Of a DNA stretch of 64,000 nt, positions 6,033 to 62,326 are shown piece by piece (position 1 is the first letter of the stretch; each line of letters opens with the position of its first letter). The stretch lies in contig NZ_OCMY01000001.1 of NCBI RefSeq assembly GCF_900215435.1, positions 558,001-622,000 of the forward strand. Reading direction: 5' to 3'. The position numbers and the translations under genes are program-made. The notes under the pieces were generated by a model. The model had not been told where the DNA came from. It worked only from the letters and a program-made list of their open reading frames with translations, and did no database searches. The stretch is from Candidatus Pantoea floridensis (GTDB lineage Bacteria; Pseudomonadota; Gammaproteobacteria; Enterobacterales; Enterobacteriaceae).

Positions 6033-6177
6033 CGTGTCAAAAAAATCCGGTCAGGAGTTTTGCGCTGTGTAAACACACAGGCCGCCCACATCAAGCCAGA
6101 CGGGATGCGGGCTGGCTGCAGTATCATACGCACTTCCCTGAGAAATTTCTTAACGAGATTGTTTCCAGGCGTTAAAA

Positions 6178-26679: not shown

Positions 26680-27666
26680 TTAGCCACCAATAAAGGAGAG
26701 GTTTTGCGTGATGCCGGTATTGCCCTGATGCAGAAAGTGCGTCTGCTTTTTCTGCCCAAGGCTGTGCGCAATGCGCGCCTGCAGCTCTGCTTGCTGATCG
26801 TCAGACGCCAGCAAATCGCGCAGCGACACGCCGCCGTCGCCAAACAGGCACAGATGCAATTTACCCATCGCTGAGACGCGCAGGCGATTACAGCTGGCGC
26901 AGAAATCTTTCTCGTACGGCATGATTAGGCCCACTTCACCCTGATAATCGGGATGACGAAACACCTGCGCCGGCCCGTCGCTGCGGCCGCGCGGCTGGCG
27001 CTGCCAGCCCTGCATAATCAGCTGGTCGCGAATCACTTCACCGGAGATATGATGACGATGGAACAGATCGCTGCCTTCACCGGTTTCCATTAGCTCGATA
27101 AAGCGTAGTTGAATCGGCCGCAGGCGCAGCCACTCAAGGAAGGTGCTGAGGCTGTGGCTGTTCACATCGCGCATCAGCACGCTGTTAACTTTCACTTTCT
27201 CGAAACCGGCATCGAAGGCGGCATCGATGCCCGCCATCACCTCGGCAAATTTGTCTTGTCCGGTGATGGCGTGAAACTGGCGCGCGTCGAGGCTATCGAC
27301 GCTGACGTTAATGTGGGTGAGACCGGCTGCGCGCCACGCTCGCACGTCGCGCGCCATGCGGTATCCGTTGGTGGTCATGGCAATCTGGCGGATGGCATCG
27401 TTTTCCCGCACCGCGGCGATGATGTCGGTAAAATCACGACGCATGGAAGGTTCACCGCCGGTCAGCCGCACTTTTTCAGTGCCCGCCGCCGCAAAGGCAC
27501 GCGTCACGCGACGAATCTCATCCAGCGAGAGAAAGCTTTTGTTGTGCGTGCCGCTCGGCTTATAGCCGTTCGGCAGGCAGTAGGTACAACGGAAGTTACA
27601 CACATCCGTGACCGACAGGCGCAAGTAGTAAAAGCTGCGCGCGTAGGCATCTGTAAATTGTGGCAC
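26680..27666 (-). CDS. moaA: GTP 3',8-cyclase MoaA
   Basis: 328 residues from a GTG start at 27666 (E. coli 329). The GTG is chosen because [20 protein letters not shown] aligns with the E. coli start and AAAGG lies about eight bases upstream; the frame is open further but without homology. Radical-SAM cluster cysteines are C23, C27 and C30 (CNFRCTYC); the second cluster is in CASCNRL and HLCLF. The terminal Gly-Gly is conserved. It rearranges GTP in the first step of Moco synthesis. Confidence 0.95.
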
Positions 27667-27681
27667 CTGAACACCTTTCCA

Positions 27682-27780
27682 AAGTCGGGAGATGCAGGCA
27701 TTTCTTTCTGCACCCTGGCAGCTCAATGCTGCGGCCTGTATTCCATATCTTTCACGACTTAGGAAACCAGGCTTGGGAGT
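27682..27780 (-). promoter_or_regulatory. Probable Moco riboswitch in the moaA leader
   Basis: On the reverse strand, just before moaA, nested complementary segments can be seen: CCTG...TTCC pairs with GGAA...CAGG around AAGTCGTGAAAGATATG; GCAGC-ATTGA-GCTGC forms a hairpin; and CAG..GCA-GAAAGAAA-TGC-CTG forms another. The E. coli moaA leader is known to hold a Moco riboswitch in this place. The identification is by position and visible structure, not by a covariance search. Confidence 0.75.
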
Positions 27781-27852
27781 TTGTTGTCATTGTGGACAAC
27801 ACGGTTAAAACGAATGGTAGCGCGATTAGCGATTAGCATCCATCAGTGAATT

Positions 27853-49992: not shown

Positions 49993-51045
49993 TTAACCGC
50001 GACGCTGTTTAACCGCCTGCGCCAGTTGACGCAATGCTTTCTCGGTATCTGCCCAGCCGATGCACGCATCGGTCACGCTCTGGCCATACACCAGCGCTTT
50101 ACCGCTTTCGAGGCTCTGGTTACCTTCTACCAGATGGCTCTCAATCATCACGCCGGTAATCGCCTGCTCGCCGCCCGCAATCTGCTGCGCCACGTCGTCA
50201 GCAACCACCATCTGACGCTGGAACTGCTTGCTGCTGTTGGCATGGCTAAAGTCGATCATCACCTGTGGACGCAGATCCGCTTTCTCCAGACCGATTTTCA
50301 CCGCGGCTACATGTTCAGCGCTGTAGTTCGGCTCTTTGCCGCCGCGCAGAATGATGTGGCAATCTTCGTTACCGCTGGTTTCGACAATGGCCGAGTGGCC
50401 ATACTTGGTGACGGAGAGGAAGCAGTGTGGCGCGCTGGCCGCACCAATGGCGTCAATCGCCACTTTAATGGTGCCATCGGTGCCGTTTTTGAAACCAACC
50501 GGGCACGAAAGGCCAGAAGAGAGTTCACGATGCACCTGTGATTCGGTGGTACGCGCGCCAATTGCGCCCCAGCTCATCAGATCGGCCATATATTGCGGTG
50601 TGATCATATCAAGGAACTCACCCGCCGCCGGCAAACCCATATCGTTGATATCCACCAGCAGCTTGCGCGCCAGGCGCAGACCGTCGTTGATCTGGAAGCT
50701 GCCATCCATAAAGGGATCGTTGATCAGCCCTTTCCAGCCGACCGTGGTACGCGGTTTTTCAAAATACACGCGCATCACCACTTCTAAATCATCTTTGAGC
50801 TCTTCACGCAGTTGCAGCAGGCGCGCCGCATACTCTTTCGCCGCTTTAGTATCATGAATTGAGCAAGGACCGATGACCACCAGCAAACGATCATCCTGAC
50901 CGTGCAAAATGCGGTGAATCGCCTGACGTGATTGGGCAACGGTTTCGGCAGCTTTATCGGTGGCGGGGAATTTTTCAAGCAAGGCAACAGGAGGAAGTAA
51001 CTCTTTGATCTCTCTGATGCGCAAATCGTCGTTCTGGTAATCCAT
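49993..51045 (-). CDS. aroG: DAHP synthase, phenylalanine-sensitive AroG
   Basis: 350 residues from the ATG at 51045, as in E. coli AroG; an in-frame ATG four codons upstream is less likely. MDYQNDDLRIREIKELLPPV, VIGPCSIHD, KPRTTVGWKGLINDP, and GGKEPNYS are class I DAHP synthase motifs. Condenses phosphoenolpyruvate and erythrose-4-phosphate, the entry to aromatic synthesis. Closest by sequence and by context to the Phe-inhibited isoenzyme. Confidence 0.96.
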   Translation of the reverse strand: MDYQNDDLRIREIKELLPPVALLEKFPATDKAAETVAQSRQAIHRILHGQDDRLLVVIGPCSIHDTKAAKEYAARLLQLREELKDDLEVVMRVYFEKPRTTVGWKGLINDPFMDGSFQINDGLRLARKLLVDINDMGLPAAGEFLDMITPQYMADLMSWGAIGARTTESQVHRELSSGLSCPVGFKNGTDGTIKVAIDAIGAASAPHCFLSVTKYGHSAIVETSGNEDCHIILRGGKEPNYSAEHVAAVKIGLEKADLRPQVMIDFSHANSSKQFQRQMVVADDVAQQIAGGEQAITGVMIESHLVEGNQSLESGKALVYGQSVTDACIGWADTEKALRQLAQAVKQRRG

Positions 51046-51344
51046 ACATAATTCCATTCAAATTTCTGGCCCAACGTCCGCCGGGCGCAACCCGCCCACT
51101 TTAGCCCTTCATGCGTCGGGTGTAAATTACGCGCGGAGGTTAAATGTACATCTCAAATTTGCATTTACCCATCCCTGCGCTAAGCTTTTTAAATGTAAGC
51201 ACTAAGGATCGATGTGTTTGCAAAATTTAATATTTAAGCGAAGCGTATAAGGTGGAATTTTATTCCATCGCGGCACGCTATTTTCGTCAATCAACACCAG
51301 CCGGTGTTAGACGGCAACTATCCATTAATTACCGGAGCATAATG

Positions 51345-51680
51345 ATGAATAAGTTTGCAATTATCTTTCTCACCGCAGCGATGACTTTAAGTAGCGGTGC
51401 GGTCATGGCTGCAGATAACAACGGTGAGGCCAATGCCTCAGCGAAAGCGGGCGCGGCGGCAGGCGGCGCTAAACAAAATCTGCCACCGAATAATGTTGAT
51501 AACAGTAAAATCAATAACGGCAGCACTAATACTAACAGCGCTGCGACATCGGGTACCGATTCAAGCAATATGTCCAAAACTCAGATTCATAAAAATACAC
51601 TTTGCAAAGAGGGCAAATGCCCTGATATGAACAAAAAGGTCGGTACTAAACATCATAAAACCGATGGCACTACACAATAA
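51345..51680 (+). CDS. ybgS: YbgS-like small periplasmic protein
   Basis: 111 residues from the second of two adjacent ATGs (51342, 51345); GGAG at 51334 fits the second. A signal peptide ends near residue 22 (VMA-ADNN). The mature part is low in hydrophobics, rich in Ala, Asn, Ser and Lys, and keeps the pattern PNNVDNSKIN and HKNTLCKEGKCPDMNKKV with two cysteines, as in E. coli YbgS (126 residues). Function unknown. Between aroG and zitB in E. coli. The 299 bases upstream hold the divergent aroG and ybgS promoters and no gene that I can see. Confidence 0.9.
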   Translation: MNKFAIIFLTAAMTLSSGAVMAADNNGEANASAKAGAAAGGAKQNLPPNNVDNSKINNGSTNTNSAATSGTDSSNMSKTQIHKNTLCKEGKCPDMNKKVGTKHHKTDGTTQ

Positions 51681-51700
51681 CTCAGTCATAGGCTTAAATC

Positions 51701-51728
51701 GGGAGAGCTTCGGCTCTCCCTTTTATTT
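51701..51728 (+). terminator. Rho-independent terminator of ybgS
   Basis: GGGAGAGC-TTCG-GCTCTCCC with a stable tetraloop, followed by TTTTATTTT, 20 bases after the ybgS stop. It isolates ybgS from the two-component genes. Confidence 0.92.
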
Positions 51729-51783
51729 TGCCCTGTGCCCTTTTCCGCTATGCTGAAGCAATGAAATTCACAGGAAATGTTTC

Positions 51784-52368
51784 ATGGCTTCATTGCTGCT
51801 TATTGATGATCACCCGTTAGTCGAAGTCGCACTGGAAGCGGCCTGCGTCAACGCCCCCATTACGCTCAACATCCATGCCGCTGGCGATGAAGCTCAGGCG
51901 CGTCAGTTGTTGCAGCGTCACGCCATCGATTTGATTGTGCTCGACATCGGCTTACCGGATTGCGACGGGTTGGAGCTGCTTCGCCGTTTACGCATGCGCC
52001 ATCCGCATTGCCCCGTGCTGATCTATTCAGCACAACAGAGTCGCCACACGCTGCTCACTGCGGTTTCACTCGGCGCCGCCGGTTACGTGGTGAAAAGCCA
52101 AAGTATGGCGCAATTATTGAGTGCGATTCTAGCGGTGCTGGGCGGACAACAGGCTTTTCCACCGCTACCTGAACGTATCGAACTGCCGCTGACCGAGAAA
52201 GAGCAGCAGATCGTTGCGCTATTGGTGCGCGGACTGTCAAATTTACAAATTGGCGAACAGCTGCATATCAGCAATAAAACCGTCAGCACCCATAAGAAGA
52301 ACATCCTGGAAAAAACCGGCGTGCACTCGGTGGTTGAGCTGGCCGAGCTGTGGAAAGCGCAGCAGTGA
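51784..52368 (+). CDS. LuxR/NarL-family response regulator, EvgA/BvgA-like
   Basis: 194 residues. Receiver domain 1-120 with acidic pocket D8-D9, phospho-acceptor D54 (LIVLDIGLPD) and K104. A LuxR-type HTH follows at about 130-190 (LTEKEQQIVALLVRGLSNLQIGEQLHISNKTVSTHKKNIL). Domain order and pairing with a hybrid kinase carrying two periplasmic binding domains match EvgA-EvgS and BvgA-BvgS. AGGA lies nine bases before the ATG. First of three overlapping genes; stop overlaps the kinase GTG (GTGA). Not present at this place in E. coli. Target genes unknown. Confidence 0.91.
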   Translation: MASLLLIDDHPLVEVALEAACVNAPITLNIHAAGDEAQARQLLQRHAIDLIVLDIGLPDCDGLELLRRLRMRHPHCPVLIYSAQQSRHTLLTAVSLGAAGYVVKSQSMAQLLSAILAVLGGQQAFPPLPERIELPLTEKEQQIVALLVRGLSNLQIGEQLHISNKTVSTHKKNILEKTGVHSVVELAELWKAQQ

Positions 52369-55300
52369 GAAAACTCTTTCTATTGGTTTTGCTATTGCTG
52401 AGTCTACCGGCGAGAGCCGATTTGCTACCCGCCAGCAGCGTGATGTTACCCGCGATGATGCCCGCGCCGCATGCCGAGCCATGGTCTGGCGCGACATTAC
52501 GGGTGGCGGTGCCAGCGCAGAATAGCGCCCCCTGGGCGATGCGTATTGGCGATCGCATCTGGGGTATTGATGCCGATTATCTCAGCGCACTCAGTCAGCT
52601 CACCGGCACTCGCTTTACGCTGCAAAGCTATGCGGATCGCGCGCAGCAGCTGGCGGCGCTACAGCGCGGCGACGTGGATTTCGTGTTAAGCACCGAGCAC
52701 GCCGCCTCACCTCCTGAGGTGCTTCTCAGCGATAGCTGGTACAGCAGCCCGATTCGCATCTATCGCAATCGCGATAATCAGCGTGCGGTGATGTTCAACA
52801 GCGATACCGCACAGCTCACCATTGCCGATGCCACGCTGGCGCAGCTACCAACCGCGTTTGTGCAGCAGCATCGCTGGCATAGTTTACCGGGCGATTTGCA
52901 GGCGCTATACGCCTTGCTTAACCAACAAAGTGATTATCTGATTGCCGATGACGCCAGCGCAGGTTTTCTGCTCGACCAGTTGCAACAGGGACAAATTTAC
53001 CAGATTGCTGCCGATCCCGGTGCCGGTGAGCTGACGTTACGCGCACTGGCCAAAGACGCCGCCTTGATTCACTGGCTTAACGGCCAGCTTCGTTTGCTGC
53101 CTGCCGAGTTTAGCAACCGCGTGCAGCAGCGCTGGAGTCCGCCGCTGCTGCGTTATCAGGACACGCAAACGCTGATGCTTTCCACCAGTGAGAAACAGTG
53201 GCTAGCGCAGCATAGAGAGATTCCTTACGCGGTCGAAGCCGATAATGCGCCATGGAGCTACCGCGATAGCAGCGGCAATGCACGAGGCTTTGGCATCGAT
53301 TTACTCAATGCGCTAAGCCAAAGTACTGGCCTGCATTTTACGCCGCGCTGGGTTAACAATGCGCAACAGGCTGCCACGTTATTGCAGCAGCAGCAGGTCA
53401 TGCTAAACCTGTTGCAGCCGCTGTTCGGCGACGATGCCAGCAGCAATACCTTGCCAGTGTGGCGTGCGATTTGGGGAATTTACACGATCTCAACGCATCC
53501 ACCAATGAGTTGGCAATCCCTGCAAGGACAGCGTGTGGGCGTATTGCGTGGCGATTTGGCGCAGCGTTTACTGCCCTCCAGCATCACGCCACAGCTTTTT
53601 GACGATCGTGCACAGCTCTGGCAGGCGCTAAATAACGGCCAGATTGATGCGTTAGTCGATAATGTCCTTTCCGCCCGCTGGCGTATGGCGAGCCATACCG
53701 ACAATCGTATTCATTTGGCTTTCGCCGCCAGCGATATTGCCTGGCCACTGGCGCCACAGGTTAGCGTTGCGCAGCCGGAACTGCGTGCGCTGCTCGATCA
53801 TGCACTGCAGCAGATTCCCTCTGATACGCTGAGTCAAATGCGCCTGAGCTGGTCGCAGCCTCCGCAGCCGGGCACCACTATGGCGATGCGTAATATCCCG
53901 CTGATGATCCTCATTGCGGCTGGCATTACTATCCTGCTGCTGCTGGCGCTCCTGCTGCGGCGCTATTGGCAACAGCGCCGCGATAGGCTGCAGCGGGAGC
54001 AGGCCGAGCGCGCCAATGCCGCCAAAAGCCAATTTCTCGCCACCGCCAGCCATGAATTGCGCACGCCGATGCAGGCGATCCTCGGCTTGCTGGAGCTGGA
54101 ACAGCAGCAGCATCCGAGTGAACGATTAACGCTGATGCACAGCAGCGCGCGATCGCTGATGGCGCTGCTTAACGATTTACAGGATCACGCGAGGATTGAG
54201 AGCCAAAGTTTCCGCCTCGCACCACGTCCGCTTAACCTGGCGCATTGGCTGCACCAGCAGCAGCAGTTCTACCACCCTTTAATGCGGGATGCCGGACCGA
54301 ATTTGGTCGCTGAAGCGCTCACGCCGCTGCCGGCCTGCGTGCTGCTGGATGGCGATCGCCTGCAGCAGGTGGCGAATAATCTGGTGGCTAACGCGCTGAA
54401 GTTTACCCGCGAGGGAGAAGTGCGCATTACGCTGGCCGTTGATCAACATATCCAGCTTACCGTGGCCGACAGTGGCAGCGGTATTCCGCTCAGCGAGCAG
54501 GCGCAGCTGTTCGAGCCGTGGTATCAGGCGCCGTCCGGCAAAAGTCATGCGGTACAAGGCAGCGGGCTAGGTCTGTTTATCTGTCGCGAAATCGTGCAAC
54601 GCATGGGCGGTTCGCTGGCGCTTACCTCAGCGCCAGGCCACGGCACCACGGTAAGCGTGCAGCTCCCGCTGGTATTAAGTGATGAGCCGTTGACTGAACG
54701 TGCGGAAAGCTGGCCGCATTATCCCCAATTACGTGTCGCAATCGTTGACGATCATCCCACCAATCTTTTAGTGATGCAGCAGCAGCTGGCGAACTTTGGG
54801 GTGCAGGCTGAGGTGTTTGAAGATGGCCGCAGGCTGCTGCAGGCCGATGCCCGGATGCCGTTTGAGCTTCTGTTTATTGATCAAATGATGCCACGTCCCG
54901 ATGGTTTGACCCTGCTGCGCATCCTGCGCCGTCGTCAGCGCCAGCGTGGTAAAAGCATGCTACGCGTGCTCTGTTCCGCCGATGTGCAGCTGTTGAAAAT
55001 GGCGCTGCGGAACGATGAAGCGTTGCTGCTTAAACCCATCGAACTTGATCATCTGGCGCCGCTGCTGGCGCGTGCGGTAAAGGATCCCCTGGAAGTGCTG
55101 CCAAACAGTCTGCTGACTCTGGCACAAAACAATCCAGCTTTTATCCCCCGTATCGGGCAAACATTGCAGCGCACGCTGCAACAGGATCGCGATGCGCTGT
55201 TAAAAGCCCACCATACGCAGAATTGGGCCGAGCTGGAGCACGCTGCGCACCGGATGAAAGGAAGCTGGCTAATGCTGGGCATTGATGAGGTTGCCGAGCA

Positions 55301-55436
55301 GTGCCAGCAGCTGATCGCACAGGCTAGACAGCAGCAGTTGAACGTTGATGATCTCAATTTACTGATATCATTAACAAACAGGTTACTTAAACAACTGGAA
55401 AATTATGGCACACACTCACTCGCACAGCGCACCTAA
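52365..55436 (+). CDS. Hybrid sensor histidine kinase with two periplasmic solute-binding domains (EvgS/BvgS type)
   Basis: 1023 residues from a GTG start that overlaps the regulator stop; residues 1-18 form a signal peptide ([17 protein letters not shown]). Two SBP_bac_3-like Venus-flytrap domains span about 40-265 and 285-505. One membrane helix (about 511-533) is followed by HisKA with H563 ([14 protein letters not shown]), HATPase ([29 protein letters not shown]), a receiver with D839 (LLFIDQMMP) and an Hpt domain with H962 (AAHRMKGSW). The relay H563-D839-H962-regulator D54 is complete. Unlike EvgS and BvgS, only 30 residues separate the helix from H563, so there is no PAS domain. The 3' end overlaps zitB by 32 bases in another frame. 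Confidence 0.92.
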
Positions 55437-56370
55437 CAGCAACCGCACGCGACTGGCGGCTGCATTCGGCGTAACGGCGCTGTTTATGGTGGCCGAAGTG
55501 GTCGGCGGGATCGTTTCCGGCTCGCTGGCGCTACTGGCCGATGCTGGACATATGTTGACCGATGCCGCTGCGCTGCTAATGGCATTACTGGCCGTACAGT
55601 TTGCCCAACGCAAACCTAACGCGCGTCATACCTTTGGCTTACTGCGTCTGACCACGCTGGCGGCGTTCGTCAATGCCATCGCGCTGCTGGTGATTACGGT
55701 TCTGATTGTCTGGGAGGCGCTACGTCGCTTCTATCAGCCACAGCCGATTGCTGGCGGTTTGATGCTCGGTATCGCCATTGCCGGGCTGCTGGCTAACCTG
55801 CTGTCATTCTGGCTGCTGCATCGCGGCAGTGAAGAGAAAAATCTCAACGTGCGCGCTGCAGCGCTGCACGTGCTCGGCGATTTACTCGGTTCGGTTGGTG
55901 CGATTGTCGCCGCCGTGATCATTATGCTGACCGGCTGGACGCCAATCGATCCGATTCTGTCGCTGCTGGTGTCATTGCTGGTGGTGCGGAGCGCCTGGTC
56001 GTTACTGCGCGAAAGTCTGCATGAGTTACTGGAAGGCGCGCCAGCCCATATTGATGCCAATAAACTTTCACGCGAGCTCACACGCACTATTGATGAAGTG
56101 CGTAATGTGCATCACGTGCATCTTTGGCAAGTGGGCGAAAAACCGGTGTTGACGTTACATGTGCAGGTCATTCCGCCTTACGATCACGACGGCCTGCTAC
56201 AGCGTATACATCACTTTTTGCACCAACACTATCAGATTGCCCATGCCACGGTACAGATGGAGTATCAGCCGTGTAGCGGAACAGATTGTGAGCTCGGTTT
56301 AGATGGCCATTCCGCGCAGCACGATCATCATGATCATACCGCGCTGGAAGGCCACGCCCATCATCATTAA
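55405..56370 (+). CDS. zitB: Zinc exporter ZitB (cation diffusion facilitator)
   Basis: 321 residues (E. coli 313). Six membrane helices; the metal site shows as [17 protein letters not shown] (HxxxD, helix 2) and [15 protein letters not shown] (helix 5). Histidine-rich termini (AHTHSHS at the start; [20 protein letters not shown] at the end). Exports Zn2+ by proton exchange. The start is fixed by alignment with E. coli and lies inside the kinase gene. Converges on pnuC, sharing stop-codon bases. Confidence 0.95.
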
Positions 56371-57086
56371 TGTGACAGCGCACGCGAGCCCTGTTCGCGT
56401 GCGCTTTGCATCCACAGCCGCGAACCATTAAGCGCAATCAGCGTGAGAATGACGTATTCAAGCGACATCGCATATACGCCCTGGCGCGCGAAGATCATCA
56501 CGCTGATGACGTTGATGACCACCCAAAGCAGCCAGTTCTCGACGTATTTACGCGTCATCAAAATCATCGCCACAATCGACAGCACCATCATGCATGAATC
56601 CCAGAACGGGAACGCATCCGGCTGCAATTGTGGCATCGCGACGTTCAGGCCGACACTCTGCATAATGTCCACCGCCGTTTTGGTCAGGAAGGCAAAAACC
56701 GGGTCGATGTAAACCGTCATTAGCGCTATCGCTAACACGCATGCAACGCCCCAGCCCATCGCTTTCGGCAGCGGCAGCCAGCGGATTCGCAACTCGGTTT
56801 CGTTATTGCTGGTTTGTCGGCTCCATGCATACCAGCCATAGACGTTGGCGACAAAGAAAAACAGCTGCAGTAATAGGCTAGCGTAAAGCTGGATTTGGAA
56901 GAAGATCACCGCAAACAACGTGACGTTGATCAGGCCGAAAAAGTAGTTAATGATTTTTTCAAGGCTGGCTAGCCAGATACACAACAGGCCCGCGACGGTG
57001 CCGATGGCTTCAATCCACGACAGATCGTAGCCGCCAACGCCCAGCGGAATGTGAACCAGAATATTTTGTGTGCTAAAGAAGTCCAT
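56367..57086 (-). CDS. pnuC: Nicotinamide riboside transporter PnuC
   Basis: 239 residues, as in E. coli. About seven membrane helices; [27 protein letters not shown], and [13 protein letters not shown] (the WxxW-type substrate region). Imports nicotinamide riboside for NAD salvage. 36 bases downstream of nadA in the same direction, so likely one operon under NadR. Confidence 0.94.
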
Positions 57087-57111
57087 GTGAGGTACCTATA
57101 GCCTAAATATG

Positions 57112-57134
57112 CAGGGTACGCGTCATGCGTTCCC
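57112..57134. repeat. Degenerate palindromic repeat over the nadA stop
   Basis: GCAGGGTACGCGTCATGCG followed by TTCCC resembles the GTAGG-GTGCGCAT family with one head change, one mismatch and one missing base. It overlaps the last codons of nadA. The relationship is uncertain. Confidence 0.45.
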
Positions 57135-58184
57135 TTTTACCTTGAGTTTAAGATCTGCAGCGAAAGATAGCATGCGATTGAGTGGGATCAACGCAGCCTC
57201 ACGCAGCGCGTCTTCAACATGAATTTCATGCTCGCTGCCGCCGCGTGCTAATCCTTCGGCAATGGCTTTAAGGCCGTTCATCGCCATCCACGGACAGTGC
57301 GCACAGCTGCGGCAAGTGGCGCCTTCACCGGCGGTTGGCGCTTCCAGCAGCTCTTTATTCGGTACCGCCTGCTGCATTTTGTAGAAGATGCCGCGATCGG
57401 TGGCGACGATCATCTGCGGATGCGGCAGGCTCTGCGCCGCCTGAATCAGCTGGCTGGTGGAACCGACCGCATCGGCTAAATCGACAATCGCCTGCGGTGA
57501 TTCAGGATGCACCAACACAGCCGCATCCGGATAGAGCGCTTTCATACGTTGCAGCGCCTGGGTTTTGAATTCGTCATGCACGATGCACGCGCCCTGCCAG
57601 CACAGTACATCGGCACCGGACTTCTGCGTGACGTAACGGCCAAGATGGCGATCCGGCGCCCAGATGATTTTCTCGCCGAGGCTATCAAGATGTTCAATCA
57701 GTTCAACCGCAATACTCGACGTCACCACCCAATCGGCGCGCGCTTTAACCGCCGCCGAGGTGTTGGCGTACACCACCACGGTGCGATCGGGATGCTGATC
57801 GCAGAAGCGGTTGAACTCTTCAATAGGGCAACCAAGGTCGAGTGAACATTCCGCCTGCAACGTAGGCATCAGCACGGTTTTTTCCGGGCTGAGGATTTTT
57901 GCTGTTTCGCCCATAAAACGCACGCCCGCCACCAGCAAGGTTTTTGCTGGATGCGTGCTGCCGAAACGCGCCATTTCTAGCGAGTCTGATACGCAGCCAC
58001 CGGTCTCTTCCGCCAGCGCCTGAATCTCTGGATCGGTGTAATAATGGGCCACCATCACCGCATCACGTTCTTTTAGCAAGCGTTTGATTTCGTTCTTGTA
58101 GTAGGATTTTTCATCCACACTGAGACGCGCCGGTTTCGGCGGGAAAGGATAGATCGCGTTTTCAGGATCAAACATCAGACTCAT
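57123..58184 (-). CDS. nadA: Quinolinate synthase NadA
   Basis: 353 residues (E. coli 347). 4Fe-4S enzyme condensing iminoaspartate and dihydroxyacetone phosphate. [47 protein letters not shown] and the [13 protein letters not shown] cluster region are conserved. The C-terminus ([12 protein letters not shown]) is a few residues longer than in E. coli, and its end coincides with a repeat-like palindrome. Confidence 0.96.
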
Positions 58185-61003: not shown

Positions 61004-61795
61004 TTACAACCCGGCAAGGCGTTTTTGCGCCTGCTTAGCAGAATCACTATTTGGGAATTGTTTGATCACCTGTTGGAAGACCGCTTTGGCTTTCGCCGTG
61101 TCGTTCTTCTCTTGCATGATCACGCCAACCTTAAACAGCGCTTCCGGGGCTTTTGGCGATTTCGCATAATTTTTTACCACAGTGGCAAAATAATAGGCCG
61201 AATCGTCTTTTTTACCCTTGTTGTAAAACAGCTGACCGAGCCAGTAATTGGCATTCGGCTGATAGGTAGAATCAGGATATTTCTTCACCCAAGCCTGCAG
61301 GGCTGTAATGGCCTGATCGTACTGCTTCTTCTCCAGAATCAATGCAACCGCAGCATTGTAATCCGTGTTGGCGTCGCCGGTTTGAGCTGGCGCTGCCGCA
61401 CTGGCATTATCGCTGCTAGCGCTATTCGCAGCTGCTGCGCCTGCTGCCGCATCTGCACTACCGCTCGCCTGCGCACCGTTACTGCCGGAGCTTAGGCTAT
61501 CGATCTGCTGATAGAGCTGTTTCTGGCGCTCAACAACCTGGTTAAGCTGATAGCTGTTTTGCTGGATTTGCCCGCGCAGCGAATCGATATCGCTTTGGTT
61601 ATCGCTCATCTGCTGCTGCAACTGCTGCAAAAGCTGAGCCTGGGCATTAGAGATACGTTCAAGAGTGGTGACGCGGTCTTCGACCGAGCCTGAGCCAACG
61701 CTACTGATTGACGCCTGGGCATTAGCGGCCCAGGGGGCCGCTAAACCAACCAGTAACGACAGACTCAATAGATGAAGTCTGAAGTTACTCATCAT
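61004..61795 (-). CDS. cpoB: Cell division coordinator CpoB (YbgF)
   Basis: 263 residues, as in E. coli. A signal peptide ends near residue 26 (WAANA-QASIS). A coiled coil (about 35-100, VEDRVTTLERISNAQAQLLQQL) drives trimerisation, then an Ala/Ser-rich linker and three TPR repeats from about 145. It links Tol-Pal to PBP1b activity during septation. Two ATGs (61795, 61792) are possible. Last gene of tolA-tolB-pal-cpoB. Confidence 0.95.
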   Translation of the reverse strand: MMSNFRLHLLSLSLLVGLAAPWAANAQASISSVGSGSVEDRVTTLERISNAQAQLLQQLQQQMSDNQSDIDSLRGQIQQNSYQLNQVVERQKQLYQQIDSLSSGSNGAQASGSADAAAGAAAANSASSDNASAAAPAQTGDANTDYNAAVALILEKKQYDQAITALQAWVKKYPDSTYQPNANYWLGQLFYNKGKKDDSAYYFATVVKNYAKSPKAPEALFKVGVIMQEKNDTAKAKAVFQQVIKQFPNSDSAKQAQKRLAGL

Positions 61796-61804
61796 ACGAT
61801 TATC

Positions 61805-62326
61805 TTAGTAAACCAGTACGGCACGACGGTTTTTAGCGTATGCCGCTTCGTCATGACCCAGTACAGCTGGTTTTTCTTTACCGTAAGAAACGATAGACAT
61901 CTGGTCAGCAGAAACGCCTTTGCCTTGCAGATACATCTTAACGGCGCTTGCACGACGTTCGCCCAGGGCGATGTTGTATTCTGGGGTACCGCGCTCATCC
62001 GCATGACCTTCGATGGTCACTTTGTAAGACGGGTTGCTACGCAGGAATGCAGCGTGCTGATCCAGCATCTGAGCGTAATCAGACTGCACGTCATACTTGT
62101 CCAGACCGAAGTAAACGATGTTGTTCTGCTGCAGCTGCTGCATCTGCAGGCGCGCTTGCTCGTCAGAAGACATGTTACCGTTCTGGCCCGCACCAGCACC
62201 GTAAGCACCGTCGTTAGCGCCCATACCAGTCTGATCGTTGTTGTTGTTTTTGTGTGAGCTACATGCAGCTACTGCGATAACCGGCAGAGCCAGCATCAAA
62301 CCCTTCAGCACTTTATTCAGTTGCAT
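61805..62326 (-). CDS. pal: Peptidoglycan-associated lipoprotein Pal
   Basis: 173 residues, as in E. coli. Lipobox VAACSS with Cys22 as lipidation site, a Asn/Gly-rich linker, and an OmpA-like domain with [24 protein letters not shown] that binds DAP in peptidoglycan. Anchors the Tol system to the outer membrane. Nine bases separate it from cpoB. Confidence 0.97.

Follow-up and report, generated by a model that had tools for sequence, protein, structure and literature searches.

In Candidatus Pantoea floridensis the gene for the zinc exporter ZitB begins inside the end of a sensor kinase gene, and the question raised by this locus is whether the overlap means that the kinase controls zinc export or has another cause. 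The DNA analysed here (the window) is a stretch of 64,000 nucleotides from contig NZ_OCMY01000001.1, positions 558,001 to 622,000, in a genome of 5.45 Mb (G000) whose nearest named relatives at the locus are Pantoea; unprefixed coordinates are those of the window and refer to the + strand unless stated otherwise. As an earlier note on this DNA described and the open reading frames confirm, three genes run in one direction: a NarL/LuxR-type response regulator of 194 residues (51784–52368; Pfam Response_reg and GerE), a PAS-less hybrid histidine kinase of the BvgS family with 1023 residues (52365–55436, GTG start at 52365) and zitB, encoding a CDF-family zinc exporter of 321 residues (55405–56370) that passes the ZitB equivalog cut-off of NCBIfam (NF002923, 565 bits against 408). 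The regulator and kinase genes overlap by 4 bases (52365–52368) and the kinase gene and zitB by 32 bases (55405–55436). The mechanical reading frame of the kinase starts at an earlier GTG at 52350 and would give 1028 residues. We think it likely that zitB has, within the kinase gene, an extended −10 promoter and a ribosome-binding site of its own, and that the regulator–kinase relay is an inherited, independent and repeatedly lost neighbour.

The earlier note had raised the question whether the same three genes stand in the same order across relatives, and they do. In a sample of 295 genomes of the family, matches to the kinase at E 0.001 were found in 206, and 19 genomes, that of the window included, scored above 700 bits, the next best match having 287 bits. 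All 19 have zitB adjoining the kinase; zitB itself was found in 159 of the 295 genomes at E 1e-60. A collection of named records supplied 43 loci, namely 35 orthologues (from Pantoea, Mixta and Erwinia, plus two entries that bear other Enterobacteriaceae names) and eight distant kinases. In 34 of the 35 orthologue contigs zitB is adjacent, the contig of L048 ending before zitB; the L039 contig begins partway through the kinase, so that its regulator is out of view; L056 and L062 are probably the same genomes as L010 and L009. A protein search, which scored the best 8000 candidates by shared words, returned at least 116 matches and added Winslowiella as well as further Erwinia and Ewingella names. 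The regulator-kinase-zitB order is thus found beyond a single strain and is common to many relatives. The overlaps recur with it. In 45 of 54 loci, one of the candidate start codons gives the 4-base overlap of regulator and kinase, and an overlap of 11–44 bases between kinase and zitB is present in 7/7 sampled loci of the Pantoea/Erwinia type (window included) and in 31 of the 35 named loci, the others being L048, because of its contig end, and the broken kinases L061, L065 and L069. Judged by titles and abstract openings, none of the open-licence papers returned by the literature searches concerns this locus.

The presumed zitB promoter, P2, is the sequence TGATATCAT at 55363–55371, which has TGn ahead of the −10 hexamer as in extended −10 promoters of the sigma-70 type. 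Removal of the duplicates (L010, L062) and of the truncated L048 from 42 Pantoea/Erwinia-type loci left 39, and in 32 of these TGnTATnAT precedes the zitB ATG by exactly 42 bases; the 119,926 nt upstream contain it at just one other place. The looser form TGnTAnnAT occupies position −42 in 21 of 23 loci with the regulator–kinase pair (pair-plus loci) from three further genera. This part of the kinase gene also carries the strongest constraint on codon choice in the gene. The 10-codon segment from residue 998 (codons 998–1007, 55356–55385) ranks first of 806 such segments and none of the top 20 starts before residue 995; it lies upstream of the overlap with zitB, which begins only at codon 1014. 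Among 35 intact kinases Ile1001 is written ATA in 27/27 cases, against 100 ATA among 1439 Ile codons in all, Ser1002 is TCA in 19/19 and Arg1006 is AGG in 27/30. The synonymous divergence (dS) of codons 996–1012 was 0–0.26 in seven pairs, compared with 0.51–1.90 in the rest of the gene. Further on, a CTGGA at 55395–55399, presumably the zitB ribosome-binding site, belongs to a conserved block of the tail consensus in which Leu1011 is CTG in 33/35. The conserved extended −10 at −42 points to a promoter of zitB's own, and such a promoter, occupying the last codons of the kinase, is the best explanation for a zitB start that lies within the kinase gene. On this evidence zitB is probably expressed without need of the relay. 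The earlier note had allowed for either dependence on the upstream genes or a promoter inside the kinase gene; the latter is supported by the conserved element, and the former is unsupported apart from possible read-through. Promoters inside the coding sequence of an upstream gene are a known general phenomenon. P2 resembles that class in that the downstream gene is read from a start within its neighbour, and differs from it in two marks, the constraint on codons and the remnants left behind after loss of the host gene.

Several observations weigh against a promoter at this site. The exact form is missing at −42 in 7 of the 39 loci; L044, one of these seven, has TGATAACAT there, in L042, L043, L055, L060 and L064 the sequence is TGCTACTAT at −45, and L051 carries TGCTACTCT in place of the exact form. 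The pair-plus loci L156 and L158 are without TGnTAnnAT at −42. No conserved −35 accompanies the element, as the consensus of positions −60 to −1 loses its conservation above about −50, and a distant clade of 12 loci has neither such an element nor a kinase/zitB overlap beyond 1 base. Nor is the motif rare in itself (the window has 3, against 4.7 expected), so that only the fixed place of P2 and its codon constraint are unusual. The terminator scan found no terminator-like site between the kinase end and the zitB start, and some degree of co-transcription or read-through from P1, the presumed promoter of the pair, is therefore likely. A sigma-70-like site at 55325–55352, the sole one from the scan on the + strand, was set aside as the zitB promoter in view of where the 20 most constrained segments begin. 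In favour of the promoter, four loci with broken kinases (L061, L065, L069 and L071; drafts, in which an assembly error is possible) still carry P2. In L069 (Mixta mediterraneensis) the kinase is interrupted and the regulator match is partial too, with zitB and the −42 element intact, and in L061, L065 and L071 an interrupted kinase lies beside an intact zitB and −42 element.

The earlier note took the pair to be an addition in this genome, on the ground that ybgS and zitB are direct neighbours in E. coli. They are, with 113 bases between them in the example record; the E. coli locus, aroG-ybgS-zitB-pnuC-nadA, is the same apart from having no regulator–kinase pair, and zitB is present in 5375 of 5426 E. 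coli genomes. However, loci without the pair (pair-minus) are nested among pair-plus loci and many of them keep kinase-tail DNA before zitB, so that in the Erwinia/Pantoea group loss is the preferable interpretation. In a tree of zitB, pnuC and aroG from 65 loci, the pair is found on both sides of a clade of 17 pair-minus loci, with 8 changes, 6 of them forced (starred branches), and in a second tree of 66 loci the pair-minus loci are again nested among pair-plus ones in the Erwinia/Pantoea group, with 11 changes over the whole tree, 6 of them forced. Both are quick trees with support from the Shimodaira–Hasegawa-like approximate likelihood ratio test only, the first rooted at its midpoint, and parsimony counts alone do not distinguish gain from loss. 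In the best-sampled genus, where zitB was found in 36 of 37 genomes and 30 loci could be read, 15 loci have the pair and 15 do not; a second genus has it in 7/8 and a third in 1/2. Distances of regulator plus kinase track those of zitB (Spearman 0.84; 31 loci, 465 pairs), and each of the two kinase clades is monophyletic in a likewise quick tree, some of whose rows are long outgroups or of unusual composition. Both results favour descent with repeated loss. The pair was likely present in the ancestor of both clades, one ancient transfer being a less likely alternative.

The kinase tail itself is still recognizable in a number of pair-minus loci. In blastn comparisons of 20 of them, L115 keeps 83 bp of the tail at 77% identity to its congener L014 (E 3e-9), L113 keeps 71 bp at 76% and L118 keeps 47 bp at 81%, all three in register with the zitB start. 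When the loci were aligned to the tail consensus and scored against shuffles, made from two-base blocks and so only roughly dinucleotide-preserving, 9 of 21 Erwiniaceae-type pair-minus loci (L095 and L154 being near-identical) gave p ≤ 0.005 and 10 of 21 passed at 0.05, whereas 0 of 25 controls outside the Erwiniaceae type, E. coli included, had p < 0.05. L112, for which blastn gave no match, scores p ≤ 0.001 by local alignment to the consensus. The element TGnTAnnAT stands at −39 to −42 in 13 of these 21 relatives, but in none of the 25 controls. Some of the remnants are frame-shifted or stopped, and it is therefore the DNA and not the protein that has been kept. On the other hand, the element is missing in 8 of the 21 loci and 12 of the 21 have no remnant at p ≤ 0.005; pair-minus loci were moreover collected through zitB, so genomes that lost both escape notice; in the best-sampled genus, zitB is without a match in 1 of the 37 genomes. 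Together the trees and the remnants favour loss of an older pair over its addition. The pair-minus locus L114 keeps 31 bp that match, at 84%, the block preceding the regulator gene of its congener L012. In L114 (G230) and L120 (G190) the block before zitB is like the regulator promoter (CGCTATnnT) and not like the kinase-tail promoter, as if the opposite end of the deletion had been retained.

The same data bear on the reverse order of events, in which the zitB promoter is the older element, insertion of the pair upstream of it was followed by extension of the kinase frame into the promoter, and the pair-minus state is primitive. E. coli-type genomes, which have neither pair nor remnant (the region before zitB in E. 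coli gives p 0.39 against the tail consensus), are consistent with it, as is the fact that either promoter block can stand alone before zitB (L114, L113), and parsimony is silent between gains and losses. This order of events is nevertheless disfavoured and we regard it as unlikely: the L113 remnant still reads in frame as the last residues of the kinase, the distant kinases that are without such a promoter appear to have an alignable, leucine-spaced C-terminus, and there are several instances of pair-minus genomes lying inside pair-plus clades.

Control of zitB by the relay, with the phosphorylated regulator driving a long transcript from P1 or acting at P2 so that zinc export follows a periplasmic signal, would account for the shared strand, for the overlaps and for the lack of a terminator between kinase and zitB. 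It would also suit the adjacency of zitB in every readable kinase-bearing locus (19/19 and 34/34) and the short spacing between kinase and zitB in the distant clade, −1 to +53 in 10 of 12 loci. Vertical inheritance alone accounts for the adjacency, however, and P2 is retained in many genomes that are without the pair at this locus. None of the 20 most constrained segments indicates an operator-like codon constraint above P2. The earlier note's suggestion of a metal-linked sensor fared no better, since an alignment of 34 kinases (that of the window and 33 of the 116 from the protein search) has no invariant His or Cys in sensor residues 22–512, the test covering these two residue types; the best-kept histidines are H283 (32/34) and H169 (29/34). 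The reading as a zinc sensor or metal-sensing two-component system was dropped on these grounds, and control of zinc by the sensor is unsupported by any result here. Relay control of zitB is accordingly improbable, and the neighbourhood of relay and exporter is most simply a shared inheritance. A promoter of zitB's own fits a passage in PMC5768658 that calls E. coli zitB "constitutively expressed", in contrast to the description of zitB as "directly inducible by zinc" in part of PMC4424684. A row in a table of SELEX (systematic evolution of ligands by exponential enrichment) results in PMC5493296, in a section on heat-shock sigma promoters, lists the zitB-ybgS spacer.

Somewhat less probable again is a reading in which the three genes form a working unit older than the split between Erwinia/Pantoea and the Ewingella type, zinc export is tuned by the regulator, both by read-through from P1 and by action at P2, and P2 alone is retained in lineages without the relay; if so, loss of the relay would turn a signal-tuned exporter into a constitutive one. 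The weakest possibility is that the conserved tail is some other DNA or RNA element, such as a regulator-binding site or a zitB leader: the constraint does run past the −10 to the AGG of Arg1006 and the CTGGA block, but the tail persists where the locus has no regulator, TGnTATnAT with its constant spacing has the shape of a promoter, and none of the six Rfam matches in the window, at gathering score, falls within 51000–57200.

The pair itself was characterized by its domains and by structure. Pfam matches in the kinase comprise two SBP_bac_3 stretches (Venus-flytrap domains), HisKA, HATPase_c, Response_reg and Hpt, with no PAS match at E 0.01. The phosphorylation sites H563 (HisKA), D839 (receiver) and H962 (HPt) are invariant in the 34 kinases, as are D8, D9, D54 and K104 in 48 regulators (L010, L061, L062, L065 and L069 left out). 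Outside the tail the nonsynonymous divergence (dN) is far below dS in the seven pairs (0.065 against 1.70 for the sensor of L001 and L009, for example), indicating purifying selection on the kinase where it is intact. By sequence the sensor matches the periplasmic regions of EvgS (9ilw, E 6e-23) and BvgS (4q0c, E 5e-20). A structure model of middling quality (predicted local distance difference test 73.8, predicted template modelling score 0.43), used for domain order and fold match only, has a single helix from the membrane into HisKA at residues 513–582 (transmembrane segment and linker), of low confidence in that part, and its best two Foldseek matches are BvgS 4q0c and EvgS 9ilw over both domains, with low TM-scores of 0.20–0.22 by query length. 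The equivalog cut-offs of NCBIfam for EvgS and EvgA were clearly missed (243 of 1995 bits for the kinase, 95 of 251 for the regulator) and membership in EvgAS was rejected for this reason. The likeness to EvgAS and BvgAS stated in the earlier note therefore holds at the family level only, and by sequence the pair is best described as a PAS-less BvgS-family relay. The parts of PMC5829827 and PMC4352136 that describe the PAS-less subfamily give it the same plan, two Venus-flytrap domains, a transmembrane segment, a helical linker directly to HisKA, HATPase, receiver and HPt, and a NarL-type regulator as partner; about 30% of BvgS homologues with two Venus-flytrap domains are without PAS according to a passage in PMC5829827, and the window kinase belongs among these. 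Unlike BvgS, to which it is 22% identical in the Foldseek alignment, it has no PAS domain, and the pair differs from the family in sitting before zitB. E. coli EvgAS shares its architecture apart from PAS and the homology of the sensor, and is set apart by the distance to the equivalog cut-offs. According to PMC5573083 and PMC4352136, EvgS responds to acid and BvgS to nicotinate or sulfate, respectively. A hint of nicotinate sensing from the nearby nadA-pnuC, by analogy with BvgS (PMC4352136, in part), was set aside, as nadA, pnuC and zitB also adjoin in E. coli, which has no pair. One source in the protein search labels the P. ananatis protein BvgS.

By analogy with the family, a ligand at the Venus-flytrap domains would lead to phosphotransfer from His563 through Asp839 and His962 to Asp54, the presumed phosphoacceptor of the regulator. 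The 3′ end of the kinase gene would double as the zitB control region, with TGATATCAT as promoter and the ribosome-binding site in the last codons, and zitB would be transcribed from there, probably independently of the relay, with possible additional read-through from the regulator promoter. Repeated loss of the pair in Erwinia-type lineages would in many cases have left the promoter-bearing tail ahead of zitB. An odd overlap is thereby explained without shared control, which cautions against inferring function from overlapping neighbours. The loci form a natural series, in which a neighbour's promoter lies in the kinase gene, constrains its codons and is often a fossil where the kinase is gone, and congeneric genomes with and without the relay are natural pairs for asking whether it touches zinc.

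Upstream of the regulator, the conserved block TTCCGCTATGCTGA (51743–51756) contains the −10-like TATGCT (51749–51754) and is the candidate for P1, the regulator-kinase promoter. TAT[GT]CT stands 20–60 bases before the regulator in 39/39 near-clade loci, the duplicates L010 and L062 counted, and in 10 of 12 distant loci. Between P1 and the regulator, at 51760–51783, a TGAAATTCACAGGAA block and a TTTCATG at the start codon are conserved in close Pantoea relatives; the block looks like a short inverted repeat that covers the ribosome-binding site. Before P1 lies ybgS (51342–51680; PF13985, E 1.9e-42), followed by a terminator-like hairpin of 8 pairs with a U tract (51701–51720). The earlier note called this a strong terminator; the hairpin exists and similar ones recur before the regulator or zitB in relatives, but the scan of the window was overall at chance level, with 9 found against 7.6 expected. 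Beyond zitB are pnuC (56367–57086, − strand) and nadA, both convergent to zitB. The ends of zitB and pnuC overlap by 4 bases (56367–56370), with an exact counterpart in E. coli (L131, 3371–3374).

Elsewhere in the genome, two more large hybrid kinases of the Venus-flytrap type lie close together at C1:718400–721210 (L006, + strand) and C1:722035–725424 (L004, − strand), with further matches at C1:2619391–2622447, C1:4162049–4165327 and C2:211529–214120. Rfam matches elsewhere in the window include, all on the − strand, a Moco riboswitch (27655–27791), a CpoB/ybgF thermometer (61766–61904) and a Peptidase-S11 RNA (6042–6130).

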